Below are positions 19,733 to 33,439 of a stretch of 40,866 nt of DNA, in pieces. Numbering within the stretch: position 1 is the stretch's first letter; the number at the start of each line of letters is the position of its first letter. The position numbers and the translations under genes were made by a program. The DNA is from Candidatus Stoquefichus massiliensis AP9 (GTDB lineage Bacteria > Bacillota_I > Bacilli_A > Erysipelotrichales > Coprobacillaceae). The notes below the pieces were generated by a model. That model saw only the letters and a program-made list of their open reading frames with translations. It was not told where the DNA came from and ran no database searches. The stretch is taken from NCBI RefSeq assembly GCF_000455285.1, contig NZ_HG005286.1, positions 275,643 to 316,508 of the forward strand, in the 5' to 3' direction.

Positions 19733-20482
19733 ATGATATTATATTTTACAGGAACAGGAAATAGTGCATTTATTGCAAACACTATAGCAAGTCATCTTAA
19801 TGATGAAGTTATGAATCTTTTTGATAAGATTCGTGATCATGATTATAGTGAATTAAGTTCAGAGCAACCATGGATTATTGTCACACCAACTTATGCATGG
19901 AGAATTCCACATATTGTCAGTGATTGGATAAATAAAGTATCATTAAAAGGAAATCGCAATATATATTTCTTTATGACATGTGGAGGATCAATTGGATATG
20001 CAGAAAAATACCTAGAGGAAATTTCTCAACAAAAAAAACTAATTTATAAAGGTTGTGCTGAAATTGTTATGCCCGAAAATTATATAGCTATGTTTGAAAC
20101 AACACCATCAAATGAAGTAGATGGAATGCTTCAAATTGCCAAAGAGAAAACTTTAGAAATTTCAACGTATGTCAAAGAAAACAAATCGATTCCACAAAAG
20201 ACAATGACTTTAAAAGATAAACTTAACAGTGGAATTGTTAATAATCTGTTTTATCCATTATTTGTGCATGCAAAGAAATTTTATGTTACTGATCAATGTA
20301 TTTCATGTGGTCAATGTGAACGTGTTTGTCCTTTAAAAAATATTCAATTAAAAGATAGGAAACCAGTATGGGGACATGATTGTACGCATTGTATGGCATG
20401 TATTTCTTATTGCCCAACAAAAGCAATTGAATATGGAAAAAAGACAGTTGGAAAACAGAGATATGTATGTCCAAAATATTAA
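19733..20482 (+). CDS. EFR1 family ferredoxin (flavodoxin-like and 4Fe-4S domains)
   Basis: A 249-residue protein. Residues 1-165 have a flavodoxin-like fold starting LYFTGTGNSAFIA, the phosphate loop that binds FMN. Residues about 188-235 carry two cluster motifs, CISCGQCERVCP and CTHCMACISYCP. EFR1 proteins are widespread electron carriers in anaerobes with few characterised roles. It follows the ArsR gene after 10 bases with AGGAGAG, and could supply electrons to the nitroreductase two genes upstream. Confidence 0.88.
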   Translation: MILYFTGTGNSAFIANTIASHLNDEVMNLFDKIRDHDYSELSSEQPWIIVTPTYAWRIPHIVSDWINKVSLKGNRNIYFFMTCGGSIGYAEKYLEEISQQKKLIYKGCAEIVMPENYIAMFETTPSNEVDGMLQIAKEKTLEISTYVKENKSIPQKTMTLKDKLNSGIVNNLFYPLFVHAKKFYVTDQCISCGQCERVCPLKNIQLKDRKPVWGHDCTHCMACISYCPTKAIEYGKKTVGKQRYVCPKY

Positions 20483-20509
20483 GATATATTGAGAGATATA
20501 TCTTTTTTT
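20481..20509 (+). terminator. Terminator after the EFR1 gene
   Basis: AAGATATA (20481-20488) and TATATCTT (20497-20504) form an AT-rich stem followed by T residues. It overlaps the stop codon. Confidence 0.7.
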
Positions 20510-20530
20510 GTTTGTTAATTCAAAAGGTAA

Positions 20531-20559
20531 TTGACATTATGATAATAGAGATGTATTAT
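20531..20559 (+). promoter_or_regulatory. Promoter of the aldo/keto reductase-EIIA genes
   Basis: TTGACA (20531-20536), 17 bases, TATTAT (20554-20559). An overlapping TATAAT at 20557 would need a 20-base spacer and is less likely. Confidence 0.7.
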
Positions 20560-20580
20560 AATGTTGACATGACATCATTA
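20559..20580. promoter_or_regulatory. 22-bp operator-like palindrome upstream of the aldo/keto reductase
   Basis: The halves TAATGTTGACA and TGACATCATTA match in inverse at 9 of 11 positions. The site overlaps the -10 box and transcript start. Its core recurs, in inverse orientation and 14 of 15 bases identical, upstream of the first PTS EIIB gene (21898-21912). Confidence 0.6.
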
Positions 20581-20604
20581 CAATATAAAAAAAGAGGTGA
20601 AATA

Positions 20605-21441
20605 GTGAAACAAATAAAACTAAGAGAGAATGTCTTTATCCCTGAGATTGGGTTTGGGACATGGAAATTAGAAGATCAGGAGCTAGCTAAGAATAGTGTA
20701 TTGTTTGCATTGCAACTAGGTTATCGTCATATTGATACAGCAATGTCTTATGGAAATGAAGAAGCAATTGGTCAAGCAATTAAAGAAAGTGGCATACCTC
20801 GAAGCGAGATATTCCTAACAACAAAGTTGAGTAATGATTTTAGAGGAAGAGATGCAACATTTCGTGCATTTGAACAAAGTCTTCAACGTTTACAAACTGA
20901 TTATGTTGATTTGTTTTTAATTCATTGGCCATCTCCTAAAAAATATCGTGATCATTATAAAGAACTCAATAATGAGACCTATAAGGCAATGGAAGAATTA
21001 TATTTTTTAGGGAAAATCAAAGCGCTTGGTGTTAGTAATTTTTTAATTCATCATTTAGAAGAGTTATCGACACAAGTACCAGTAAGTGTTAATCAAATAG
21101 AATTTCATCCTTATTTTACTGATTGGGAAACAATTGAATATTGTCAAAAACATAACATGACTATAGAAGCATATAGTCCATTAGGAAGAGGACAAATTTT
21201 AAAAGATCCTGTTATTATAAAGATGGCTGAGAAATATCAAAAATCAACGGCTCAAATTTGTATAAAGTATGCATTACAAAATAACATTGTTCCTTTACCA
21301 AAGTCTCAAACAACAAAAAGAATTCAAGAAAATCTCAATGTATTTGATTTTGAAATAAGTGAAGAAGATATACAAATATTGAAAAGTTTAAATAAAGATG
21401 ATGGAAAAATTGGCAGTCATCCTGATTATGCGGATTTTTAA
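20605..21441 (+). CDS. Aldo/keto reductase
   Basis: A 278-residue NADPH-type oxidoreductase of the AKR superfamily (2,5-diketogluconate reductase-like group). The catalytic tetrad is Asp44 and Tyr49 (HIDTAMSYGNE), Lys74 (TTKLSN) and His107 (FLIHWPSP). The nucleotide site is marked by PLPKSQTTKRIQENLNVFDF. GAGGTGA at 20594-20600 sets the GTG at 20605 as start; the longer in-frame extension crosses the promoter. It is followed after 11 bases by a PTS EIIA gene, suggesting a role in the same sugar pathway. Confidence 0.88.
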   Translation: MKQIKLRENVFIPEIGFGTWKLEDQELAKNSVLFALQLGYRHIDTAMSYGNEEAIGQAIKESGIPRSEIFLTTKLSNDFRGRDATFRAFEQSLQRLQTDYVDLFLIHWPSPKKYRDHYKELNNETYKAMEELYFLGKIKALGVSNFLIHHLEELSTQVPVSVNQIEFHPYFTDWETIEYCQKHNMTIEAYSPLGRGQILKDPVIIKMAEKYQKSTAQICIKYALQNNIVPLPKSQTTKRIQENLNVFDFEISEEDIQILKSLNKDDGKIGSHPDYADF

Positions 21442-21452
21442 AGGAGAAGAAT

Positions 21453-21854
21453 ATGAAAGGTATATTATTAGTAACACATGGTTCAATGGCTCAAGGTATT
21501 TATGAAAGTTGTCAAATGATTGTAGGTGAAAAGGAAAATATTTTGACTCTTTCATTAGATGAAGAAGGAGTAGAGAAGTTTAGGTATCAATTAGAAGAAA
21601 AATTGATTCAAATGGAATCAATGTATGAAGATGTTATTATTGTGACAGATATTCCTAATGCAACACCTTATAATGAATGTTGTCGCTATATATTGAGTCA
21701 TCAAAGTTCGATAAAACTTCTTTCAGGAATGAATCTTGCTATGGTGATTGAACTTGCTATTTATGCTGAAATAGATATAAAATCTGAAGATTTATGTCAT
21801 CAAGTCTTGGAAAGTGCAAAACAATCACTTACAAAATTTGAAAAAAGTATGTAA
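21453..21854 (+). CDS. PTS mannose-class EIIA component (system 1)
   Basis: A 133-residue IIA-Man domain protein that carries phosphate from HPr to EIIB. The phosphorylated histidine is His9 (LVTHGSMA), and DIPNATPYN matches the conserved TD-x-x-G-T/A-TP loop in altered form. It is cotranscribed with the aldo/keto reductase (AAGGAGAAG ribosome site) and separated from EIIB by 93 bases holding a new promoter and operator-like sites. Confidence 0.88.
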   Translation: MKGILLVTHGSMAQGIYESCQMIVGEKENILTLSLDEEGVEKFRYQLEEKLIQMESMYEDVIIVTDIPNATPYNECCRYILSHQSSIKLLSGMNLAMVIELAIYAEIDIKSEDLCHQVLESAKQSLTKFEKSM

Positions 21855-21947: not shown

Positions 21948-22451
21948 ATGTCATTAAGTTTAGTGAGAGTTGATGATCGTTTAATTCATGGGCAAGTGGT
22001 CTTAATGTGGTCTAAAGTAAGACAGGGAGATGCCATTATTCTCTTGGTTGATGATGAATTAGGATATGATGATTTTTTAAAGGAAGTTTTTGTGAATGCT
22101 GGAAATGCAATTGGTAAAAAAGTTTATATCTTTACTGTTGAACAAGCAATAGAAAAAATTCCTAAGGCTGTTTCAAGCAAAAAAAGTTATTACTTAATTG
22201 CAAAAAAGATTGAACAACTCTATCAGCTGAGTGTTAAAGGTGTTGAATTTGGTAATGAAATCATTTTTGGAACTGCTAGTAAGGCAGAGGGGACGCAGAA
22301 GGTTTATAACAATATTTATCTTTCTCAAAAAGATTTTCAATATTGTGATGAATTGACTGCAAAAGGAATGAAAATACATTTTAAGTTGATTCCTGATGAA
22401 CAAGGATTGAGTTGGGAATCAGTAAAGAATGGATTATTGAAGGGAGAGTAG
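21948..22451 (+). CDS. PTS mannose-class EIIB component (system 1)
   Basis: A 167-residue IIB-Man/Sor protein that passes phosphate to the incoming sugar. The start LVRVDDRLIHGQV contains the phosphorylated His14. GAAAGGAGG precedes the ATG. EIIC follows after 3 bases. The substrate class (mannose, fructose, sorbose or amino sugar) cannot be decided from EIIB sequence. Confidence 0.92.
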   Translation: MSLSLVRVDDRLIHGQVVLMWSKVRQGDAIILLVDDELGYDDFLKEVFVNAGNAIGKKVYIFTVEQAIEKIPKAVSSKKSYYLIAKKIEQLYQLSVKGVEFGNEIIFGTASKAEGTQKVYNNIYLSQKDFQYCDELTAKGMKIHFKLIPDEQGLSWESVKNGLLKGE

Positions 22452-22454
22452 TTT

Positions 22455-23258
22455 ATGGAAATTACTGTTATACAAGCAATATTAATTGGAGTTGCTTGTT
22501 GGCTTGGTAGTGTTGAGAATCCACAACCATTAGGAGTTGCTTTTTCAGATGCTTTATCTAAACCAATAGTTGGTGGAACTATTGTGGGTATGATCTTAGG
22601 CGATATTCCTACTGGAGTTACAATTGGTGCAGCCATACAAGCTATGTACTTAGGACAAGTTCTTATTGGTGGAGTTGCAACTGCAGATATGGCATTTGTT
22701 TCTTACCCATCTATTGCTTTAGCAATGTTGGCTGGAGCAGATGCAACAGTTGCAGTCACATTAGCTGCTACAGTTGGTGTATTAGGAGCAGCAGTCTTTA
22801 CAGGTTATGAAATCTTATGTTCTGTATTTTATCAATTAGGTGATAAATATATTGCAGAAAATAATATTCAGAAAATGAAGATGGCTTATATGGTTTTACC
22901 TCCAATAACAAGTTTTGTAATCAGATTTGGTTTAACATTTACAATTGTTATGCTAGGAAGTGCTTATGCAGCTGATTTATTAGCTTCTATTCCTGAATTG
23001 GTATTACATATTGCAAGTGTACTTGGTGGAATTTTACCTGCAGTTGGTATTTCTATATTGGTAACATATACATTAAAGGATTTCAAATTTATTATTTACT
23101 TTTTAATTGGTATTGTATGTATTACATTTTTAGGTTTAAACATGGTAGCAACTGCTGTTATTGGAAGTTGTTTAGCAGTTATGTATTATATGTTTATGGG
23201 AAACCAGTCAAGTAATCAGTCTAGTCAATCTGAAGATGAGGAGGACGAATTATTATGA
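22455..23258 (+). CDS. PTS mannose-class EIIC component (system 1)
   Basis: A 267-residue membrane permease subunit with the family start ITVIQAILIGVACWLG and conserved PTGVTIGAAIQAMYLG. Multiple hydrophobic segments cover the whole length except for a Ser/Gln/Asp-rich tail. It works in complex with EIID. The last 4 bases overlap the EIID start (ATGA). Confidence 0.92.
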   Translation: MEITVIQAILIGVACWLGSVENPQPLGVAFSDALSKPIVGGTIVGMILGDIPTGVTIGAAIQAMYLGQVLIGGVATADMAFVSYPSIALAMLAGADATVAVTLAATVGVLGAAVFTGYEILCSVFYQLGDKYIAENNIQKMKMAYMVLPPITSFVIRFGLTFTIVMLGSAYAADLLASIPELVLHIASVLGGILPAVGISILVTYTLKDFKFIIYFLIGIVCITFLGLNMVATAVIGSCLAVMYYMFMGNQSSNQSSQSEDEEDELL

Positions 23259-24103
23259 GTGAAAAAATAGATCAAAAAGAAGAATTAGAAAATGGGAAAA
23301 TAACACTTACAAAAGAAGAAGTCAATAAAAGCTGGTATTCATGGTTTAAATATTGTTTAACAGTTTTTGGTTATGAAAGATTACAGGCTCCTGGTTTTAT
23401 TCTTTCTATGTTGCCTATTTTTAAGAAATTTTATGGAAATGATCCAGAGAAAATGGTTGAACGTCTCAAATGTCATGCAGTATTCTATAACACAAATCCT
23501 GTATTTGGTGCAGTTGTTAATGGTATAGTTGCTTCTATGGAAGTAGAAAGAGGTAATGGGACAGAGATGACTGATGAGTTCATTAACAGTATTAAAGTTG
23601 GACTCATGGGACCTTTGGCAGGTATTGGAGATGCAGTTACACAAGCAACACTTCCTCCAATTATCTTAAGTATTGCGATTGGACTTTCATCAGGTGGAAG
23701 CGCAATGGGTGCTGCCTTTGCAGTAATTGCTCTCTACGCTGCCAATATCATCCTATCAAGATTATTTTATATGCAAGGTTATAAATCAGGGCGAGAGGCA
23801 GTTCATGTTTTATTGGGAAAACAAATGTCTAGAATTCAAGATGCAATGTCAGTTTTGGGTTTAACAGTTGTTGGTGCTATTACTGCTAGTTATGTTAACT
23901 TTACAATTACTGCTCAATATGTGAGTGAGTACAGTACGATTAATTTTCAGGAAATATTAGATGGAATTTTTCCAAAACTGATTCCAATGTGTTTAGTATT
24001 CTTAGGATATTATTTATTAAAGAAAAAGAAAATGAGTGCTGTCAAATTAATTGGAGTTTATCTAGTAATTGCAATTGTCTTAGGTGTATTAGGAATTGTA
24101 TAA
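23255..24103 (+). CDS. PTS mannose-class EIID component (system 1)
   Basis: A 282-residue membrane subunit. The family segments YERLQAPGFILSMLPIF, HAVFYNTNPVFGAVVNGIVASMEVE and GLMGPLAGIGDAVTQATL are all intact, unlike the copy in the second system. Hydrophobic segments occupy the C-terminal half. GAGGAGGA precedes the start. It is followed by the HAD phosphatase gene after 14 bases. Confidence 0.92.
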   Translation: MSEKIDQKEELENGKITLTKEEVNKSWYSWFKYCLTVFGYERLQAPGFILSMLPIFKKFYGNDPEKMVERLKCHAVFYNTNPVFGAVVNGIVASMEVERGNGTEMTDEFINSIKVGLMGPLAGIGDAVTQATLPPIILSIAIGLSSGGSAMGAAFAVIALYAANIILSRLFYMQGYKSGREAVHVLLGKQMSRIQDAMSVLGLTVVGAITASYVNFTITAQYVSEYSTINFQEILDGIFPKLIPMCLVFLGYYLLKKKKMSAVKLIGVYLVIAIVLGVLGIV

Positions 24104-24117
24104 ATGAGGTGAGGGAT

Positions 24118-24924
24118 ATGGTTAAAGTGATATTTTGTGATTTAGATGATACATTGTTACAACCTAAAACAAAAGAAATAACTTATCAGGATCAGCAGTC
24201 TATTAAAAGATGGTTAGATAGTGGACATTTATTTGTGCTTGCTACTGCACGCCATCATTCCTTCTTAAATAACATCTCAGATAAGTTTCATGAATTTGAT
24301 TTTGATTGTATTGGCTGGAATGGTGCAGAAATCTATATGAATCATAAAGTCACAAAACTATATCCCTTTTCTTCATATAAATTAGAAGCGTTATATCAAA
24401 AGTTAAAGTCTTATCAAGCTATGTTAAAAGTCACAAATATTGAAAACATGTATATATTTGGTGAAATAGATTCTTATGCCTACCATTTGTTTAATAGTGA
24501 AATAAAACACCAGTGTATATATCCATATTCAATAAATGAATATTTACGCAATAAAAACAAACCTATTGTTCATGTGAATTATATTTTTCAAACTGCTCAA
24601 CAAGCTCAATATTTTATAAAAGATTATCAACAGTTATTCAAGGAAGATTTTCTACAATGTAAAGTCACATCACCTACAAGTTTTGACTTAACTATGCCTA
24701 ATGCAACAAAAGAAAAAGGAATTCAAGCATATTTAGAATACAATAATATACCCATTACAGATGCAGCGGTTATAGGAGATAGTCAAAATGATATAGGTAT
24801 GATGCAACTTGTACAAAAAAGTTTTTGTATGCAACATGGTCATCCAAAAGCTAAAAAGGCTGCTTATAAAGTTGTTTGTTCAGTAAGTGAAGCAATAGAG
24901 TGTTTGGAAGGAGATGAAAAATGA
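24118..24924 (+). CDS. HAD superfamily IIB (Cof-type) phosphatase
   Basis: A 268-residue HAD hydrolase with a C2 cap. Motif I is IFCDLDDTLL (Asp7, Asp9), the second is VLATARHH, the Lys lies in NATKEKGIQAYL, and motif IV is IGDSQNDIGMM. Cof-type enzymes dephosphorylate sugar phosphates and similar compounds. The start at 24118 has GAGGTGAGGG before it. Its place between PTS EIID and manA suggests action on a phosphorylated sugar of this pathway. Confidence 0.88.
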   Translation: MVKVIFCDLDDTLLQPKTKEITYQDQQSIKRWLDSGHLFVLATARHHSFLNNISDKFHEFDFDCIGWNGAEIYMNHKVTKLYPFSSYKLEALYQKLKSYQAMLKVTNIENMYIFGEIDSYAYHLFNSEIKHQCIYPYSINEYLRNKNKPIVHVNYIFQTAQQAQYFIKDYQQLFKEDFLQCKVTSPTSFDLTMPNATKEKGIQAYLEYNNIPITDAAVIGDSQNDIGMMQLVQKSFCMQHGHPKAKKAAYKVVCSVSEAIECLEGDEK

Positions 24925-25887
24925 GTGAATGAGAAATATATATTTTTAAAACCGACTTTTTCTACAGCAATATGGGGAAATGGAAAATTAGTCTATCAAT
25001 ATCATGTTGAAAAATATGTTCCTAAAGGTATGCCTATTGATGAAATTACAGGCCTAGGAGCAATGAGTGGATTACCAGAAGATGCAAATGAAATCTTAAC
25101 AGGTCAATATCAGGGAAGAAAGTTAAATGAATTATATAATGAACATCCTGAATTATTTGGAACGCCTTCAACTTTAAAATGGGAACATCTTCCAGTATCT
25201 ATGGGAATTGCTCATGCTTGTGCTGATTTAAGTGTACAAGTCCATCCTACAGAAGAATTTGCCATGAAGAATTTAGGAAGACATGGAAAAAGTGAAAGTT
25301 GGTATATTGTAGATTGTGACTCTCATGGAGATATTGTTATGGGTCATAATGCCAAAACATTGAAAGAGTTAGAGAATTATATTGATAGGAAAAATTGGCA
25401 GGGACTATTAAAACGATATCCAATTATGCCAGGAAGTTTTTATAATATACAAGCTGGAACATTACATGCCATTCAAAAAGGGACAACATTTATGGAGGTG
25501 TGTAATCCTTGTCCTATTACATATCGTTTTTATGATTATGATCGATTAGATCGTCAAGGGAAACCAAGAGATACACATATTCAACTTGCAAAAGAAAATA
25601 TTTTAATACCTTTTGTTTGCCAGGATACACATTATCAATATCGTCAAAATGGTGGTGTTACTGAAATAAAATTAACAGATAATGAAAATTTTTCAGTTTT
25701 TAAATATGTTATTGCAGGTGTTGGAGAACTGTCTATGCCTAAACCTTATTTAGGAGCTTTTGTTATTGAGGGTCATGGTGAGATTGATGGTGTTTCTTTA
25801 AAAGCAGGAGATAGTTTCCTGATTACAGCCAACACAAAAAAATTATTATGGAAAGGAGAAATGACTTTATTGGCTTATTCTGGCTAA
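24925..25887 (+). CDS. manA: Mannose-6-phosphate isomerase, class I (short form)
   Basis: A 320-residue zinc-dependent cupin that interconverts mannose-6-P and fructose-6-P. Zinc ligands are seen in LSVQVHPTEEF (Gln, His), KSESWYIV (Glu) and AGTLHAI (His); the substrate Arg lies in ITYRFYDYDR. Start is GTG at 24925, directly after the HAD stop codon, with GGAAGGAG 12 bases upstream. It gives the island one ordinary PMI beside two longer relatives. Confidence 0.92.
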   Translation: MNEKYIFLKPTFSTAIWGNGKLVYQYHVEKYVPKGMPIDEITGLGAMSGLPEDANEILTGQYQGRKLNELYNEHPELFGTPSTLKWEHLPVSMGIAHACADLSVQVHPTEEFAMKNLGRHGKSESWYIVDCDSHGDIVMGHNAKTLKELENYIDRKNWQGLLKRYPIMPGSFYNIQAGTLHAIQKGTTFMEVCNPCPITYRFYDYDRLDRQGKPRDTHIQLAKENILIPFVCQDTHYQYRQNGGVTEIKLTDNENFSVFKYVIAGVGELSMPKPYLGAFVIEGHGEIDGVSLKAGDSFLITANTKKLLWKGEMTLLAYSG

Positions 25888-25897
25888 TAGAGTAAGT

Positions 25898-27649
25898 ATG
25901 TATATGTATGAAGTAGAAGAAAGAAATCCTAACTTTGAATTATATCCTATGAAAAAGATTGATTGTAAATATGTTTTTTCAGGGTTTCAAGCAATTGTTG
26001 ATGAGTTGAAGAAACATATTGTTAAACCTTCAACTGTCATTTGTATTGATTATTATTATGGTGTCAATCAAACACTTATAGAAAAAGAGATTATAAATGC
26101 TTTAAATCCAGATCATGTTATTTGTGTAGATGAAGCAAAATATCCAGAAGAAGTGATATCAAAGAAATTTCATTGCTTTATAACAGATGATAGAGTGAAT
26201 GGTGTCTTTAGTTTTGCGAAGATACAGGAATTCTTCGATCCAGATAAAATAGCTTTATTACAAAAGCAAATACATGAAGAAGAGGGATTGATTATTGTCT
26301 ATGGAGTAGGAGCAGGCTTAATACACACAGGTGATTTATCTGTTTATGGTTCAATGAGTTATCAGACAATTAAGAATCGTTTTATGGATGGAATGGATAA
26401 CTGGGGAGCACAGAATTATGAAGAAGAATATTTACGTAAAGAAAAACGTTTTACTTTCTTAGAGAGCCGAGTTTTAGATAAACATAAAAGAGCGATATTG
26501 AAAAACTGTGATTATGTTATTGATTGTAATCGTGATAATGATTTTGTGATGTTAACACATAAAGATTATGACTATATGATTCATCAGTTTGTAACAAGTC
26601 CATTTAAACCTATTCCTATTTTTTCTAAAGGAGTATGGGGAGGACATTGGTGTCAAAAGGTCTTGGGAGCAGGTTTAGAATTAGAAAATACAGCATGGGG
26701 AATCACAGGATTTCTTGATTGGCAGGCAGTCGCTGCTGAAATTAACCATTGTGTATTTGAGTTTCCTTCGACTGATTTAATTCAGTATGCTCCAAAAGAG
26801 TTACTGGGATATAAGATTTGGTATTTATATGGATATCGTTGTCCTTTACATGTTAATTTCTTAGATACATGGGGAGGAGAAAACTTAAGTTTGCAAGTTC
26901 ATCCAACTCTTGCTTATGCTCAAGAAGAGTTTAACTCCTCTTGGGGTCATTATGAAAGCTATTATTTCTTAGATGCTAATGAGAACAGTTCCGTTTATTT
27001 AGGAACTAAGGATGGTGTTCAATTAGATGAATTGGTTGATGCCTTTGAAACGGCTCAAGTAACAGGTCAATTTGATGATGAAAAGTACATAAATAACTTT
27101 CCTGTTCAAAAACATGATCATGTTTTTATACCTGGAGGAACAATCCATTCATCTGGAAAAGATACCTTAACATTAGAAATAGATATGTTTTGTTTTACAA
27201 CTTTTAAGTTATGGGATTGGGGTCGTTTGGATTATGATGGAAAACCACGTCCAATTCATATTGAACATGGAAAGAATGTTATTCAAGAAGAATTTCAAAC
27301 TCAAATGATAAAAGATCAATTTATATCTCAACATCCTGAGGTGGATTCAGGATATGGATGGCGAAAAGAAAGAAGTGGAACAATGCCATTTGAGGCACCA
27401 ATGGAAGTCAATAGATATTGGTTTAAGAATGTTATTCATTTTGATACAAATGATTGTATTATGATTCATGTTCTTGTTGAAGGTGAAGAAGCTATTATTG
27501 AAAGCTTAGATGAAAGTTTTGAACCTATGGTTATTCATTACGCTGAAGCTGTTTTTGTTCCAGCAGCAGCTGGCCAATATACAATAAGACCATATGGAAA
27601 ATCTCAAAATACTGAATGTGCTCTGTTAGAAATTTATATGGATATTTAA
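25898..27649 (+). CDS. Two-domain class I mannose-6-phosphate isomerase-like protein, copy 1
   Basis: A 583-residue protein. Residues about 235-583 are a PMI-type cupin retaining the zinc ligands: NLSLQVHPT (Gln, His), GHYESYYF (Glu) and GGTIHSSG (His), plus KLWDWGRLDYDGKPRP. The N-terminal 220 residues are a separate alpha/beta domain reminiscent of uridine-kinase-like proteins (VICIDYYYGVNQ, IITDDRVNG-type stretch, VYGVGAGLIHTGD) but without a P-loop; similar long PMI proteins occur in other gut bacteria. The function of that domain is unknown. The ribosome site is weak (AGAGTAAGT); coupling to manA is likely. Confidence 0.8.
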   Translation: MYMYEVEERNPNFELYPMKKIDCKYVFSGFQAIVDELKKHIVKPSTVICIDYYYGVNQTLIEKEIINALNPDHVICVDEAKYPEEVISKKFHCFITDDRVNGVFSFAKIQEFFDPDKIALLQKQIHEEEGLIIVYGVGAGLIHTGDLSVYGSMSYQTIKNRFMDGMDNWGAQNYEEEYLRKEKRFTFLESRVLDKHKRAILKNCDYVIDCNRDNDFVMLTHKDYDYMIHQFVTSPFKPIPIFSKGVWGGHWCQKVLGAGLELENTAWGITGFLDWQAVAAEINHCVFEFPSTDLIQYAPKELLGYKIWYLYGYRCPLHVNFLDTWGGENLSLQVHPTLAYAQEEFNSSWGHYESYYFLDANENSSVYLGTKDGVQLDELVDAFETAQVTGQFDDEKYINNFPVQKHDHVFIPGGTIHSSGKDTLTLEIDMFCFTTFKLWDWGRLDYDGKPRPIHIEHGKNVIQEEFQTQMIKDQFISQHPEVDSGYGWRKERSGTMPFEAPMEVNRYWFKNVIHFDTNDCIMIHVLVEGEEAIIESLDESFEPMVIHYAEAVFVPAAAGQYTIRPYGKSQNTECALLEIYMDI

Positions 27650-27664
27650 AAGGAGGATAAAAAT

Positions 27665-29428
27665 ATGTATGAAAAAATAAAAACACGCTCACCTAACTTT
27701 GATTTGCATCCTGTCTTTGAAATACCTCAGACAACAGCATATTTGGGATACGAGGAGATTTTCAATGTTATATATCAACAAGTTCAAACATTTAAAAAAC
27801 CATGTGTTGTGGTGATTGATTCATATTATGATGTCAATCACCAACAGCTTAAAAACAAAGTTATTGATTTATTAAATCCACAATTATTTATTGATATGAA
27901 TGAAATCAAATACAATGAAGCTATGATTCAACAAAGACTAGGACAGTTTATTACCGAAGATCGTATTAATGGTGTTTTTGTAACAGGTGATATTCAGCAA
28001 TACTTTGATTTAGATAAAGTTGTCTTGGCACAACAGAAAATTCAAGAAGCGACAGGGTTGGTTGTTATTTTTGGAGTTGGTGCAGGAATAATGACTCATG
28101 GCGATATTTTCGTTTATAACAATATAACTATTCAACGTATTAAAGATGGTTATTTCTCAGCATTGTCAAACTGGGGAGCACATAATGAGAATGAAGATCC
28201 ACTAACCAAAGAAAAACGGTTTAACTTTGTAGAATCACGTTTGTTGGATAATCATAAACGACATATGTTTCCTCATATGGATTATGTTATTGATGGGGAT
28301 GATGAAGATGCTCCTGTTATGATAAGTGGAGATGATTTTAGAAAAGCATTAAATTATTTTGCAAGTCATCCATTTAAGTTAGAACCATTCTTTAACCGTG
28401 GCATTTGGGGAGGACATTGGTGCAAAGATGTCTTAAATGGAGGATTGGATAAGGAAAATACAGCATGGGGAATGACAGGCTGGATGAACGCACAAAATGC
28501 CTTAGCGAAAATTGGTGATCTTGAGTTTAGAATTGTTGGAAGAGATATTATTCAATATCAGCCATTAAACTTTTTAGGGCACCAAAATTATTTTTGGTTT
28601 GGATACAATTGTCCAGTTGGCTGCGATTTCTTAGATACATGGGGTGGAGGAAATTTGAGTTTACAAGTTCACTCTGATATAGCATATGGACAAGAAGTTT
28701 TTAATTCTCAATTTGGACATTATGAAAGTTACTATATGCTTGATACGAATGAAAATTCTTGTGTTTATTTGGGAACAAAAGATGGAGTGAAAAAGGATGA
28801 AATTGTTAAAGCATTCGAGCAAGCTCAAGAAACTGGAGAATTTGATGATAAAAAATATATAAATTGTTTTCCTATGAAAACACATGATCATATTTATATA
28901 CCTAGTGGAACAATTCATGCTTCAGGTAAAGATACATTAGTGTTGGAAATTAATCCGATTGGCTTTCAAACTTTTAAACTATGGGATTGGGGACGTATTG
29001 ATGCTGATGGCAAACCACGACCAATTAACATTGAACATGGAGCAAAGGTTATTCAAGAGGAGTATCAAACTGAATTTGTTAAAAATCATCTAATTTCTAA
29101 GAAAAGTGAAGTTGCAAGAGGAAGTGGGTGGCGTAAAGAACACAGTGGAACAATGGAATATGAATTATTAAAAGTAGATCGATACTGGTTTCATAAGCCT
29201 ATTTTCTTTGAAACAAAAGATCATGTAAAACTTCATGTTTTAGTAGAAGGAGAAGAAGCACAAATCATCAGTCCTTTACAGAAGTTTGAACCTATAACTA
29301 TTCATTATGCAGAAGCTGTCTTTATACCTGCAAGTGTAGGTCAGTATGTGATTAAACCTACTGATACAAATCAAGAAGAACTTGCAATTTTGGAATGCTA
29401 TATGGATATGGGAGATGCTTATCATTAA
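27665..29428 (+). CDS. Two-domain class I mannose-6-phosphate isomerase-like protein, copy 2
   Basis: A 587-residue paralogue of the preceding gene, alike over its full length and most strongly in the cupin half, so the pair arose by tandem duplication. Zinc ligands are again kept: NLSLQVHSD, GHYESYYM and SGTIHASG. The N-terminal kinase-like domain also lacks a P-loop. The strong ribosome site AAAGGAGG contrasts with the weak one of copy 1, so the two may be made in unequal amounts. It is the last gene of this transcription unit and ends in a terminator. Confidence 0.8.
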   Translation: MYEKIKTRSPNFDLHPVFEIPQTTAYLGYEEIFNVIYQQVQTFKKPCVVVIDSYYDVNHQQLKNKVIDLLNPQLFIDMNEIKYNEAMIQQRLGQFITEDRINGVFVTGDIQQYFDLDKVVLAQQKIQEATGLVVIFGVGAGIMTHGDIFVYNNITIQRIKDGYFSALSNWGAHNENEDPLTKEKRFNFVESRLLDNHKRHMFPHMDYVIDGDDEDAPVMISGDDFRKALNYFASHPFKLEPFFNRGIWGGHWCKDVLNGGLDKENTAWGMTGWMNAQNALAKIGDLEFRIVGRDIIQYQPLNFLGHQNYFWFGYNCPVGCDFLDTWGGGNLSLQVHSDIAYGQEVFNSQFGHYESYYMLDTNENSCVYLGTKDGVKKDEIVKAFEQAQETGEFDDKKYINCFPMKTHDHIYIPSGTIHASGKDTLVLEINPIGFQTFKLWDWGRIDADGKPRPINIEHGAKVIQEEYQTEFVKNHLISKKSEVARGSGWRKEHSGTMEYELLKVDRYWFHKPIFFETKDHVKLHVLVEGEEAQIISPLQKFEPITIHYAEAVFIPASVGQYVIKPTDTNQEELAILECYMDMGDAYH

Positions 29429-29541: not shown

Positions 29542-30294
29542 ATGCAATATCAAATAGATAAAAATTTACCCTTACCACTATATTATCAACTTAAACAAAT
29601 CATTATGAATTCCATAGATGAAGGAATCTATCAAGAGGATACAGCAATTCCTACTGAATTTGAACTTATTCATAAATATGATGTCAGTAGAACAACAGTT
29701 AGACAAGCATTGAACGAACTCGTTAATGAAGGTTATCTCTATCGAAAAAAAGGGATTGGAACATTTGTATCACCACAATCAAAAATAGATGAAAAATATG
29801 ATGCATTTAATACAAGTATCTATAAAATAGATCGCGTTATTAATAGAAATGGTTTTGTTTGTAAAACAGAATTTTTAGATGCAGGTGTGACTCTCGCAAC
29901 ACATGATGTTGCGGCCTATTTAGAAATAGAAGTTGGAGAGGAAGTTTGGTTTATGGATAGAATTAGATATGCTGACAATAAACCCGCTTCATTTTCACGT
30001 TCATATTTTGATAAAAGACTCGTTGATAATTTTGATAATGACGCAAAAAAAGCATCACAGCATTTTTATCAGTATTTAGAAAGCAAAGGATATAAAATAT
30101 CAATTATTAGAGAAAAATTGAAACCTGGATTGCCTGATAAAGATGTGAAGAAAGCATTATCACTAGATGATAAAACACCTATTATGTTAATTGAAGATAT
30201 TGGTTATTTGGAAGATGGAACACCTATGGAATTTTCTGTATCAGTTCTTGATGTGTCATTTGTAGATTTTTCAGCTACATTTAAACGTAATTAA
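29542..30294 (+). CDS. GntR family regulator with UTRA domain
   Basis: A 250-residue HutC-subfamily regulator. The winged helix occupies residues 1-75 (PLYYQLKQII, IPTEFELIHKYDVSRTTVRQAL, GTFV). The UTRA ligand-binding domain spans about 90-245, ending MEFSVSVLDVSFVDFS. Relatives sense sugar phosphates or amino sugar phosphates. GGAGATG precedes the start. It heads a unit with a HAD protein and a DeoC-like aldolase and sits between two PTS systems, so control of one or both is likely. Confidence 0.9.
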   Translation: MQYQIDKNLPLPLYYQLKQIIMNSIDEGIYQEDTAIPTEFELIHKYDVSRTTVRQALNELVNEGYLYRKKGIGTFVSPQSKIDEKYDAFNTSIYKIDRVINRNGFVCKTEFLDAGVTLATHDVAAYLEIEVGEEVWFMDRIRYADNKPASFSRSYFDKRLVDNFDNDAKKASQHFYQYLESKGYKISIIREKLKPGLPDKDVKKALSLDDKTPIMLIEDIGYLEDGTPMEFSVSVLDVSFVDFSATFKRN

Positions 30295-30296
30295 AG

Positions 30297-30923
30297 ATGA
30301 AACCATATATTATATTTGATATGGATGGTGTCATTATAGATAGTGAGACGTGGTATTATAAAATTTTGCAGAAGTATCTAAGAGAAAAACGAATCCTAAT
30401 ATCTGAAAGTAGATTAGAAAAATCTATTGGTTTAAGTACAGAGGATTTCTATCTTCAAAATGAGGATATGATAAATATATCACTTCAAGACTTTATTAAT
30501 GATTATCATACATATATTAATGAATATGGAATACCACGATATGAAGAACTCGTATTCCCACATATTAAAGATTGTTTTTTTGAACTTTATCAAAGAGGGA
30601 TAGATATTATTATTGCATCATCTTCATCTAGGCAGACAATTCAAGATGTTTTATCAGAAATAAAACTACAGAAATTTGTTGAATTTTATTTGGGTGCTGA
30701 AAATGTTGAGAAGAAGAAACCAAATCCAGAAATATATTTGAAGATAGTTGATATCAAAGGTTATAAACCTTTATTTGTTGTAGAAGATAGTTATTATGGA
30801 ATTCAATCAGCAAAGGCAGCTAAATTGAAAGTTATTGCATATTCTCAAAATGTAAATAATTTAAATCAAAGTGAAAGTGATCTTATTGTTTATGATCACT
30901 TAGAAATATTAAAATATTGTTAA
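30297..30923 (+). CDS. HAD family phosphatase, beta-phosphoglucomutase-like
   Basis: A 208-residue HAD protein with a helical cap. Motif I is FDMDGVIIDSE (Asp8, Asp10), motif II is IASSSSR, the Lys is in KKKPNPEIYL, and motif IV is VVEDSYYGIQSA. This subgroup includes beta-phosphoglucomutase and sugar-phosphate phosphatases; the second Asp-containing features do not separate the two. It begins 2 bases after gntR with little ribosome site, so translation is probably coupled. Confidence 0.85.
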   Translation: MKPYIIFDMDGVIIDSETWYYKILQKYLREKRILISESRLEKSIGLSTEDFYLQNEDMINISLQDFINDYHTYINEYGIPRYEELVFPHIKDCFFELYQRGIDIIIASSSSRQTIQDVLSEIKLQKFVEFYLGAENVEKKKPNPEIYLKIVDIKGYKPLFVVEDSYYGIQSAKAAKLKVIAYSQNVNNLNQSESDLIVYDHLEILKYC

Positions 30924-30949: not shown

Positions 30950-31630
30950 ATGACAAGTGATGAATTAGCAAGTATGTTTGATCACACATTTTTAAAGGCA
31001 TATGCAACTGATCAGGATTTTGAAAAATTATGTGGGGAAGCAAAGACAATAGGTGCTGCTATGGTTGCGATTAATAGTGAACCTGTAAAGTTATGTAAAA
31101 AATTATTAGAAGGGACAAATGTTCATGTAGGAGCTGCTATATCATTTCCATTGGGGCAAACAGCAATAGAAGTAAAGATTGCTGAAACAAAGAAGGCAAT
31201 TGAAGATGGCGCAGATGAAATTGATTATGTCATTAATGTTGGTAAAGCGAAGATGCATGATTGGGATTATATTGAAAAAGAAATGAAAAGTATTGTATCA
31301 GTTTGTAGAGAACACTATGTTTTATCTAAGGTTATTTTTGAAAATTGTTATTTAGAGAAAGATGAAATCAAACAATTAGCTTTAATAGCAAAAAAAGTAA
31401 AACCAGATTATATCAAAACAAGTACTGGATTTGGTACTGGTGGTGCATTAGAAGAAGATGTTCGTTTAATGAAGGAAACGGTTGGAGATGAAGTCCAAGT
31501 CAAAGCAGCAGGTGGAATTCGTGATTGGAAAACATGTGAAGCGATGATAAAAGCAGGCGCAACGCGTATTGGAACAAGCAGTTCATTAAAAATATTAGAA
31601 GAATTTGAGGATGACGTTATATCTGATTGA
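30950..31630 (+). CDS. deoC: Deoxyribose-phosphate aldolase family protein (DeoC-like)
   Basis: A 226-residue TIM-barrel aldolase. The Schiff-base lysine is Lys156 (DYIKTSTGFG), with Asp92 (EIDYVINVG) and Lys185 (VKAAGGIR) completing the active site. The usual CVNP stretch after strand 2 reads AINSEP, and the Asn of that motif is retained in shifted context. No other deoxynucleoside genes (deoD, pdp, deoB) are near, so the substrate could differ from deoxyribose-5-P. GGAGGATA precedes the start. Confidence 0.85.
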   Translation: MTSDELASMFDHTFLKAYATDQDFEKLCGEAKTIGAAMVAINSEPVKLCKKLLEGTNVHVGAAISFPLGQTAIEVKIAETKKAIEDGADEIDYVINVGKAKMHDWDYIEKEMKSIVSVCREHYVLSKVIFENCYLEKDEIKQLALIAKKVKPDYIKTSTGFGTGGALEEDVRLMKETVGDEVQVKAAGGIRDWKTCEAMIKAGATRIGTSSSLKILEEFEDDVISD

Positions 31631-31643
31631 TATAGCGTTTTTT
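31614..31643 (+). terminator. Terminator overlapping the end of deoC
   Basis: ACGTTATATC and GATATAGCGT pair with one G-T wobble over a 5-base loop, followed by a T run. Confidence 0.75.
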
Positions 31644-31787: not shown

Positions 31788-32594
31788 ATGAGCTTATTAC
31801 AAGCACTATTACTTGCACTTTGGGCTGGATTTTGTTCTTACGATGATCAAGGACCCCAAATGTTTCGTAGACCATTATTAGTTGGTCCAATTGCAGGTAT
31901 TATTTTAGGGGACATTACATCAGGGCTTATCGTATCAGCAACATTAGAATTGATGTGGATGGGATTAGGTAATATGGCAGGATATAAAACACCTGACATG
32001 ATTATTGGAACAATAGTAGGTATTACAGTATCTATTCAAACAGGAACAGGTACAAGTCCTGAAGGAATTGCTGCAGGAGTCGCTGCTGCAACAACAGTTG
32101 CAGTCTTAGCACAACAATTATTATTAGTCTTTGATTTTATTAGACAAGCATTTGCACCTTGGGCAGATCGTTTAGCATTAACTGGTAACTTTCATTCTAT
32201 TTTAAAGATCAATGCAGTTGCAGTATTATTACAAGCATCTGTAAGAGCTGTACCAACTTTCCTTGTTGTATATTTTTCAAATGGGGTAGTTGAACAATTA
32301 TTAAAAGTAATTCCAACAAATATTTTATCTGGTTTAAGTGTTGCTTCAGGTTTACTTCCAGCTATAGGTCTTTCTATTTTAATGACAATGATGATGAAAG
32401 GTTTCTTCTGGCCATTCTTATTATTAGGATTTGCTTTAGCAACATACTTAGAATTGAATATTTTATCAATTACATTAATCTCTTTAGCATTCGCAATGAT
32501 CTATTCATTAATAATGGAAGTGAAAGATAGGCAAAATGATATGCCAAAAGCAGTTAATCAAATTGATGATGAGGAAGGAGAATATGATCTATGA
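31788..32594 (+). CDS. PTS mannose-class EIIC component (system 2)
   Basis: A 268-residue membrane permease subunit (LLQALLLALWAGFCSYDDQGPQ at the start, then GDITSGLIVSATLELMWMG). It is only distantly like the system 1 EIIC, so this is a different subfamily and not a recent duplicate. AGAGGAGGA precedes the start. It overlaps the EIID start by 4 bases. No defect is seen in this gene. Confidence 0.92.
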   Translation: MSLLQALLLALWAGFCSYDDQGPQMFRRPLLVGPIAGIILGDITSGLIVSATLELMWMGLGNMAGYKTPDMIIGTIVGITVSIQTGTGTSPEGIAAGVAAATTVAVLAQQLLLVFDFIRQAFAPWADRLALTGNFHSILKINAVAVLLQASVRAVPTFLVVYFSNGVVEQLLKVIPTNILSGLSVASGLLPAIGLSILMTMMMKGFFWPFLLLGFALATYLELNILSITLISLAFAMIYSLIMEVKDRQNDMPKAVNQIDDEEGEYDL

Positions 32595-33439
32595 GCAAGA
32601 CAAATGCAAATGAAGTCAAAGGAACTTATCGTATTCTTTCTAAAAGTGATATTAGAAAAATGTTCTTACGTTTACAGCTTTTTGGATTAGGGATTACGGC
32701 AACACAATCAGGTTATCAGGCGATTGGATTTATGACAGCTGTTGCACCCGTTTTAGATAAACTTTATAAAGATGCTGATAAAGAGACAAGAAAACGTGCA
32801 ATGCAACGTCATTTAACAATGTTCTTATCACAAAATACAGCAACTGGTATGATTTTAGGCATTACAGCTGCTTTAGAAGAAACAACAAGTGAAGATGAAA
32901 AAGAAGCAGTTGTAGCAGTTAAGGCAGGTATGATGGGTCCATTAGCAGGAATTGGAGATAGTGTTTTTAAGATTACAATTTAAGCAATTGCTGGTTCAGT
33001 AGGAGCAGCTTATGCTTTACAAGGAAATTTTATTGGACCAATCTTAATGTTCTTAATTTATAATGTAATTAATGTTGGTATTAAATATTATGGAACGGTT
33101 CTTGGTTATGAAAAAGGTGTTGAATATATTAACAGTGGTGAACAGGCCAAAGTTATGCAAAAGATTATTAATGTTGCTACAATGGTTGGAGTTATTGTTA
33201 TTGGAGCTTTAATTGGATCATATGTTAAAGTGAATATTGGAACAGAATTGAAAGTTAATGAGACAGTTGTCAGTATTCAACAATTATTAGATGGTGTTAT
33301 GCCTAAATTATTACCATTATTATTAACAGTTGGATTGTATAAAGTGAATACAAAAATGCCTAGAAAATATTTAATTTTCTTAATCTTTGGATTATTAATT
33401 GTAGGAACAATCTTAGCTGTGTTAGGAGTGTTGGTATAA
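32591..33439 (+). pseudogene. PTS mannose-class EIID component (system 2), interrupted by an in-frame TAA
   Basis: A single EIID reading frame of 283 codons has a TAA at 32981-32983 (codon 131). The part before encodes 130 residues ending MGPLAGIGDSVFKITI. The part after continues in the same frame (AIAGSVGAAYALQGNFIG) to the normal stop at 33439, one base before EIIA. Reading through gives a protein of the usual EIID length. The stop falls just after the conserved GIGD loop, so the short product would lack the membrane half. One base change (for example from CAA, AAA, GAA, TTA or TCA) explains it. It is either a recent nonsense mutation or a sequence error. Confidence 0.85.

Follow-up and report, generated by a model that had tools for sequence, protein, structure and literature searches.

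Three consecutive phosphomannose isomerase-type genes, two of them tandem two-domain paralogues, in an operon-like gene run of Candidatus Stoquefichus massiliensis AP9

Does an operon with three phosphomannose isomerase (PMI) genes in a row encode one activity three times, or three different activities? This question is raised by a locus of Candidatus Stoquefichus massiliensis AP9, which was analysed here within a stretch of 40,866 nucleotides (the window, to which all coordinates refer unless another locus is named). The original prediction, made from the sequence alone, held that one hexose pathway does not need three PMIs and that the two longer proteins may act on different phosphosugars. 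We give a modest preference to the reading that the locus encodes three non-redundant zinc-dependent sugar-phosphate isomerases, which would have been retuned for a PTS-imported sugar and would act on different substrates or in successive steps.

The three genes lie in an operon-like same-strand run between about 20.5 and 31.6 kb (+ strand throughout), which extends from an aldo/keto reductase gene (20467..21441; the true start is probably inside the ORF) to a gene of the deoxyribose-phosphate aldolase family. A promoter-like site ahead of the operon (TTGACA-17-TATTAT, 20531..20559, + strand) is a consensus match only, with 11 of 12 positions, and such sites are no commoner across the region than in shuffled sequences. 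The reductase gene is followed by the mannose-family PTS genes for EIIA (21453-21854), EIIB (21948-22451), EIIC (22455-23258) and EIID (23255..24103), and by a gene for a HAD-IIB (Cof-type) sugar phosphatase (23989..24924), the ORF of which overlaps EIID and the HAD domain of which begins at about residue 45. Then come the short PMI (24925..25887; 320 aa) and the two long forms, long1 (25898..27649; 583 aa) and long2 (27665..29428; 587 aa), with 10 and 15 bp between successive genes. The run is completed by a GntR/UTRA transcription regulator (29542..30294), a HAD-IA phosphatase similar to beta-phosphoglucomutase or hexitol phosphatase (30297..30923), and DeoC (30950..31630; 224.8 bits on TIGR00126, cut-off 117.3). 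The terminator-like hairpin at the end of deoC (31613..31639, + strand) is weak, with two hairpins found and 3.3 expected in shuffles.

The gene order of the run is identical in a second genome of the genus (G048, locus L136), and a run with the same order also occurs in G053 and G005, which belong to a different genus within the family; the aldo/keto reductase gene is kept in the operon copies of G048 and Massilimicrobiota. No neighbouring gene in the operon points to a particular sugar. DeoC aldolase genes are found repeatedly in the vicinity of long PMIs, in the window and at 11 further loci, including operons unlike that of the window. A second mannose-family PTS is located downstream in the window, outside the conserved run; its EIID gene (32591-33439) is split by an in-frame TAA (32981-32983), and each half matches EIID.

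The prediction of three consecutive PMI-type genes on the + strand, the last two of them tandem paralogues with an intact zinc site and an additional N-terminal part, was confirmed. The short PMI matches the Bacillus subtilis PMI (1QWR) from end to end (E=4e-53), and long1 matches it only from residue 233 onward (E=8.5e-16); a comparison of profiles aligns the C-domain of the long family with short PMIs at a probability of 100% (E=9e-44). In long1, the double-cupin PMI domain (26594..27646) follows an N-terminal domain of residues 1-232 (25898..26593) that is predicted to be alpha/beta and has no P-loop; the corresponding N-terminal domain of long2 is encoded at 27665..28363. Over the full length, long1 and long2 share 52% identity. 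Both the double-cupin fold and the four zinc ligands of type I PMIs are present in the window proteins, and the alignment shows the ligands Gln/His/Glu/His to be complete in all three and in their orthologues (Q105, H107, E124 and H182 in the short PMI; Q333, H335, E353 and H417 in long1; Q334, H336, E354 and H418 in long2). The long forms share the double-cupin fold, the zinc ligands and the GT-x-H, Lys/Arg-x-x-Asp and PR motifs with the short type I PMI of Bacillus (1QWR; B. amyloliquefaciens BaM6PI, PMC4718643), but differ from it in carrying about 230 extra, conserved N-terminal residues.

A long PMI is present in 72 of 294 genomes of the order. The tandem pair is found in only four of these 72 genomes (and in four of the 17 of the family), which belong to two genera and always have it in this operon, so the assumption that pairing is usual among long genes, for which a survey had been proposed, was rejected. 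In a tree of 92 rows, calculated with a quick method and SH-aLRT support only, long1 and long2 each formed a clade with 100% support, and the two clades were sisters on a long stem (0.84). Since each copy forms one clade spanning the two genera, and the clades are sisters, one duplication before the split of the genera is indicated.

Comparison of the window with G048 gave a dN of 0.106 and a dS of 1.208 for long1 (dN/dS about 0.09), and a dN of 0.082 and a dS of 1.060 for long2 (dN/dS about 0.08), ratios that are only approximate because synonymous sites are near saturation. By these sequence comparisons, both copies are under purifying selection, and the N-terminal domain evolves faster than the C-terminal domain (dN of 0.208 vs 0.041 in long1 and 0.140 vs 0.047 in long2) yet is still constrained. 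Decay of the second copy, one of the outcomes that would have spoken against the prediction, was rejected: the copies are old, both are under purifying selection, and they differ at conserved positions of the putative pocket.

A docking study of Bacillus enzymes proposed Gln96, Lys114 and Glu116 (B. subtilis numbering) as catalytic, with Lys114 as the proton shuttle, an assignment that is not an accepted criterion of the family (PMC4718643). In our alignment, the equivalents of Gln96 and Glu116 are retained. The position of Lys114 is occupied by Lys in every short PMI examined (K122 in that of the operon), by His in long1 (H351) and long2, and by Gln in the other, ordinary long forms. The position of Lys85 has Lys in typical ManA, Gly in the short PMI of the operon (G94), Asn in long1 (N320), and Asp in long2 and the ordinary long forms, each state being constant among the orthologues examined. 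Five residues that 85 other long forms share without exception (W190, E275, R318, Q351 and S429) are absent from both members of the pair, which also have the motif GHYESYY in place of the TQDESYY of other long PMIs; Lys437 and Asp440 are retained. In addition, 63 positions of the C-domain are fixed differently in long1 and long2, among them the Asn or Asp at the Lys85 position. Judged by the alignment, the positions that differ between the paralogues appear to line the pocket, and the pattern of residues fits an altered substrate preference of long1 and long2.

The tandem pair is a variant within an already known but little-studied family of long PMIs. Its members, most of which bear the RefSeq name class I mannose-6-phosphate isomerase, are found in Bacillota, Bacteroidota, Deinococcota, Actinomycetota and Vibrionaceae; in broader draws, a long PMI was present in 26 of 395 genomes of the class and in 18 of 392 of the phylum. 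A protein search of plasmid records yielded full-length relatives, N-terminal domain included, in Photobacterium, Persicobacter, Listeria, Deinococcus, Spirosoma and others, with 36-40% identity over 93-99% of the length, which places the window proteins in the family; relatives in Streptomyces were more distant. The window pair matches members such as WP_009274966.1 (Parabacteroides) and WP_003734057.1 (Listeria, probably lmo2143) over the full length, has the same zinc site and, as is often the case in the family, lies near sugar uptake genes and a GntR gene. Unlike other members, its copies are in tandem, and long1 is only 31-41% identical to the Bacillota members sampled. In the literature collection searched, neither a paper on the two-domain form of PMI nor an assay of a long PMI was found.

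Among 12 annotated records from outside the order, a sugar kinase (mostly ROK) is encoded near the long PMI in ten, and a glycoside hydrolase of alpha-mannosidase type (GH92, GH38, GH76 or GH125) in six. These neighbours make mannose-6-phosphate the likeliest substrate of the ordinary long forms, which, judging from gene context, most likely convert it to fructose-6-phosphate in the use of mannosides. At 78 loci of Bacilli (a tally that leaves out L133, L134, L137 and L138, the last of which is the fourth tandem locus), genes at a distance of up to seven genes include a PTS in 29 cases, a PF06560 cupin glucose-6-phosphate isomerase in 34, a GntR regulator in 37 and another PMI in 23. Because short and long forms recur in the same neighbourhoods, they seem to do different work. 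The PF06560 cupin is likewise a cupin sugar-phosphate isomerase, and in many relatives it is encoded beside the long PMI; it belongs to a different family and is absent from the operon of the window. Annotation of the long-PMI family, with proteins of about 580 residues from at least five phyla, has mostly been by transfer; its conserved N-terminal domain has no covering Pfam or NCBIfam model that we could find, and the proposed catalytic Lys is absent. If the pair has new substrates, its automatic annotation is wrong, and a sugar pathway that uses three zinc isomerases still awaits discovery in a gut bacterium.

From these data we infer the activity, the substrates, the order of steps and the role of the N-terminal domain as follows. 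The three genes would encode non-redundant zinc-dependent aldose-ketose isomerases of the type I PMI fold, which would be made together and process a sugar imported as phosphate by the neighbouring mannose-family PTS. The long gene would have been duplicated in this lineage before the two genera separated, and both copies would have kept the zinc site while the surrounding pocket changed in copy-specific ways. Given such changes around a preserved zinc site, long1 and long2 probably use different hexose phosphates or catalyse consecutive steps, such as those from an aldose phosphate to a ketose phosphate and on to another aldose phosphate. The N-terminal domain would probably be a structural or ligand-binding (regulatory) module and no working kinase. 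Non-redundancy is argued for by the intact zinc ligands of all three proteins and their orthologues, by the supported sister clades, each of which covers both genera, between which the gene order is shared, by the low dN/dS of both copies together with their fixed C-domain differences, and by the lack of R318, Q351, E275 and S429 in the pair. The altered active sites suggest three enzymes that handle different phosphorylated sugars and are not duplicates; against this, fixed differences between paralogues can also arise without a change of substrate.

The alternative that fares best, unlikely as we consider it, is that all three proteins are mannose-6-phosphate isomerases that have been kept for flux on mannose or mannosides. 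It would agree with the mannose-family PTS of the operon and with the clustering of mannoside genes around ordinary long PMIs, but not easily with the PMI genes of the genome, which number three short and three long ones. One of the short forms outside the operon (locus L016) is a typical ManA with 201.8 bits on the manA equivalog model of NCBIfam (TIGR00218; curated cut-off 116.2 bits), and another (L017), beside genes of 6-phospho-beta-glucosidase type, also exceeds the cut-off with 134.8 bits. The PMIs of the operon remain below it, the short form with 92.7 bits and, much further down, long1 with 23.5 and long2 with 28.3 bits. With a separate typical ManA in the genome and these low scores, the three operon PMIs are unlikely to be redundant. 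The loss from the pair of residues that ordinary long forms never lack, and of the Lys85 residue from the short PMI, also speaks against a mere increase in dosage, as does a further, ordinary long PMI that is kept elsewhere in all four pair-bearing genomes. Taken together, the separate ManA, the manA scores, the age of the copies, the selection on them and their pocket differences support the predicted non-redundancy and favour different phosphosugars.

At L015 (3292-10287), the ordinary long PMI of the present genome is adjoined by two PF06560 cupins and by a binding-protein-dependent ABC transporter of PhnS/iron type. The latter could fittingly have a sugar-phosphate cargo; transporters of this type can carry sugar phosphates (AfuABC).

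The N-terminal domain was described in the original prediction as kinase-like and devoid of a P-loop, of which the second part was borne out (the Walker A motif GxxxxGK[ST] occurs in none of 97 members) and the first was not. An alignment of 46 sequences gave no convincing Pfam or NCBIfam match in any member, and its profile nothing credible in the PDB. In hhalign comparisons, from which remote homology could escape, the profile showed no signal with PF00485 uridine kinase (0.9%), with the dephospho-CoA kinase CoaE (4.1%) or with the Fe-ADH negative control, and the kinase-kinase positive control reached 92.8%. A structural model with a pLDDT of 63 has the alternating alpha/beta order of P-loop small-molecule kinases such as pantothenate and uridine kinases. 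Its weak structural matches (VIA) were headed by pantothenate kinases (Z 6.7, rmsd 6.0, 177 aligned residues), with which the unrelated Fe-ADH and aminotransferase-type folds were tied within 1 of this Z; Foldseek returned nothing at E<0.001 from the PDB and viral sets. The term kinase-like may therefore be right at the level of the modelled fold, but neither a P-loop nor profile similarity connects the domain with such kinases. Seven positions (P17, Y53, D98, G102, G136, N168 and K183) are at least 95% conserved across phyla, which speaks for a function of the domain. That this function is to sense a sugar phosphate or nucleotide by an undescribed fold and so to control the isomerase, with the pair forming a two-step or heteromeric set for a rare hexose-6-phosphate, we regard as a rather doubtful extension.

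Slightly more doubtful is the view that long1 and long2 are subunits of one hetero-oligomer with different roles, one catalytic and the other regulatory or supporting. The two genes always occur together, adjacent and in the same order in the four genomes, and both are under purifying selection, but nothing in the sequences points directly to such an assembly, neither protein has lost a zinc ligand, ordinary long forms are encoded by single genes, and the full-length model (from six sequences) is unreliable with a mean pLDDT of 37. It is least probable that the pair no longer isomerises, and instead catalyses another reaction (epimerase, lyase) or binds sugar phosphate only as a signal: the His in place of the proposed catalytic Lys, where ordinary long forms have Gln, would speak for such a loss, but the pair has kept its zinc ligands as well as Lys437 and Asp440, constraint on the C-domain is strong (dN/dS about 0.04), and ordinary long forms without the Lys are located where a mannose-6-phosphate isomerase is expected.

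The search for relatives of the long PMI gave several further observations. Listeria lmo0737 (allose operon) was rejected as the long PMI; at L156, the order of the genes agrees with lmo2143 instead. A scan of viral contigs found no relative. In Flammeovirga (WP_144076932.1; L161, 4047-6707), one of the ten records with an adjacent kinase, a ROK kinase is fused to a full long PMI, N-terminal domain included, beside a GH92 gene. At L082 (6978-8474), a short PMI is fused to a PF06560 cupin glucose-6-phosphate isomerase and adjoins an ordinary long PMI; PMI neighbours of similar length are present at L078, L151, L153 and L155. Distant relatives of about 615 aa with a divergent N-terminal domain are encoded at L133 (7884-9728) and L134 (7201-9048); with bit scores of 156-172 vs more than 360 for the others, they may constitute a separate subfamily.
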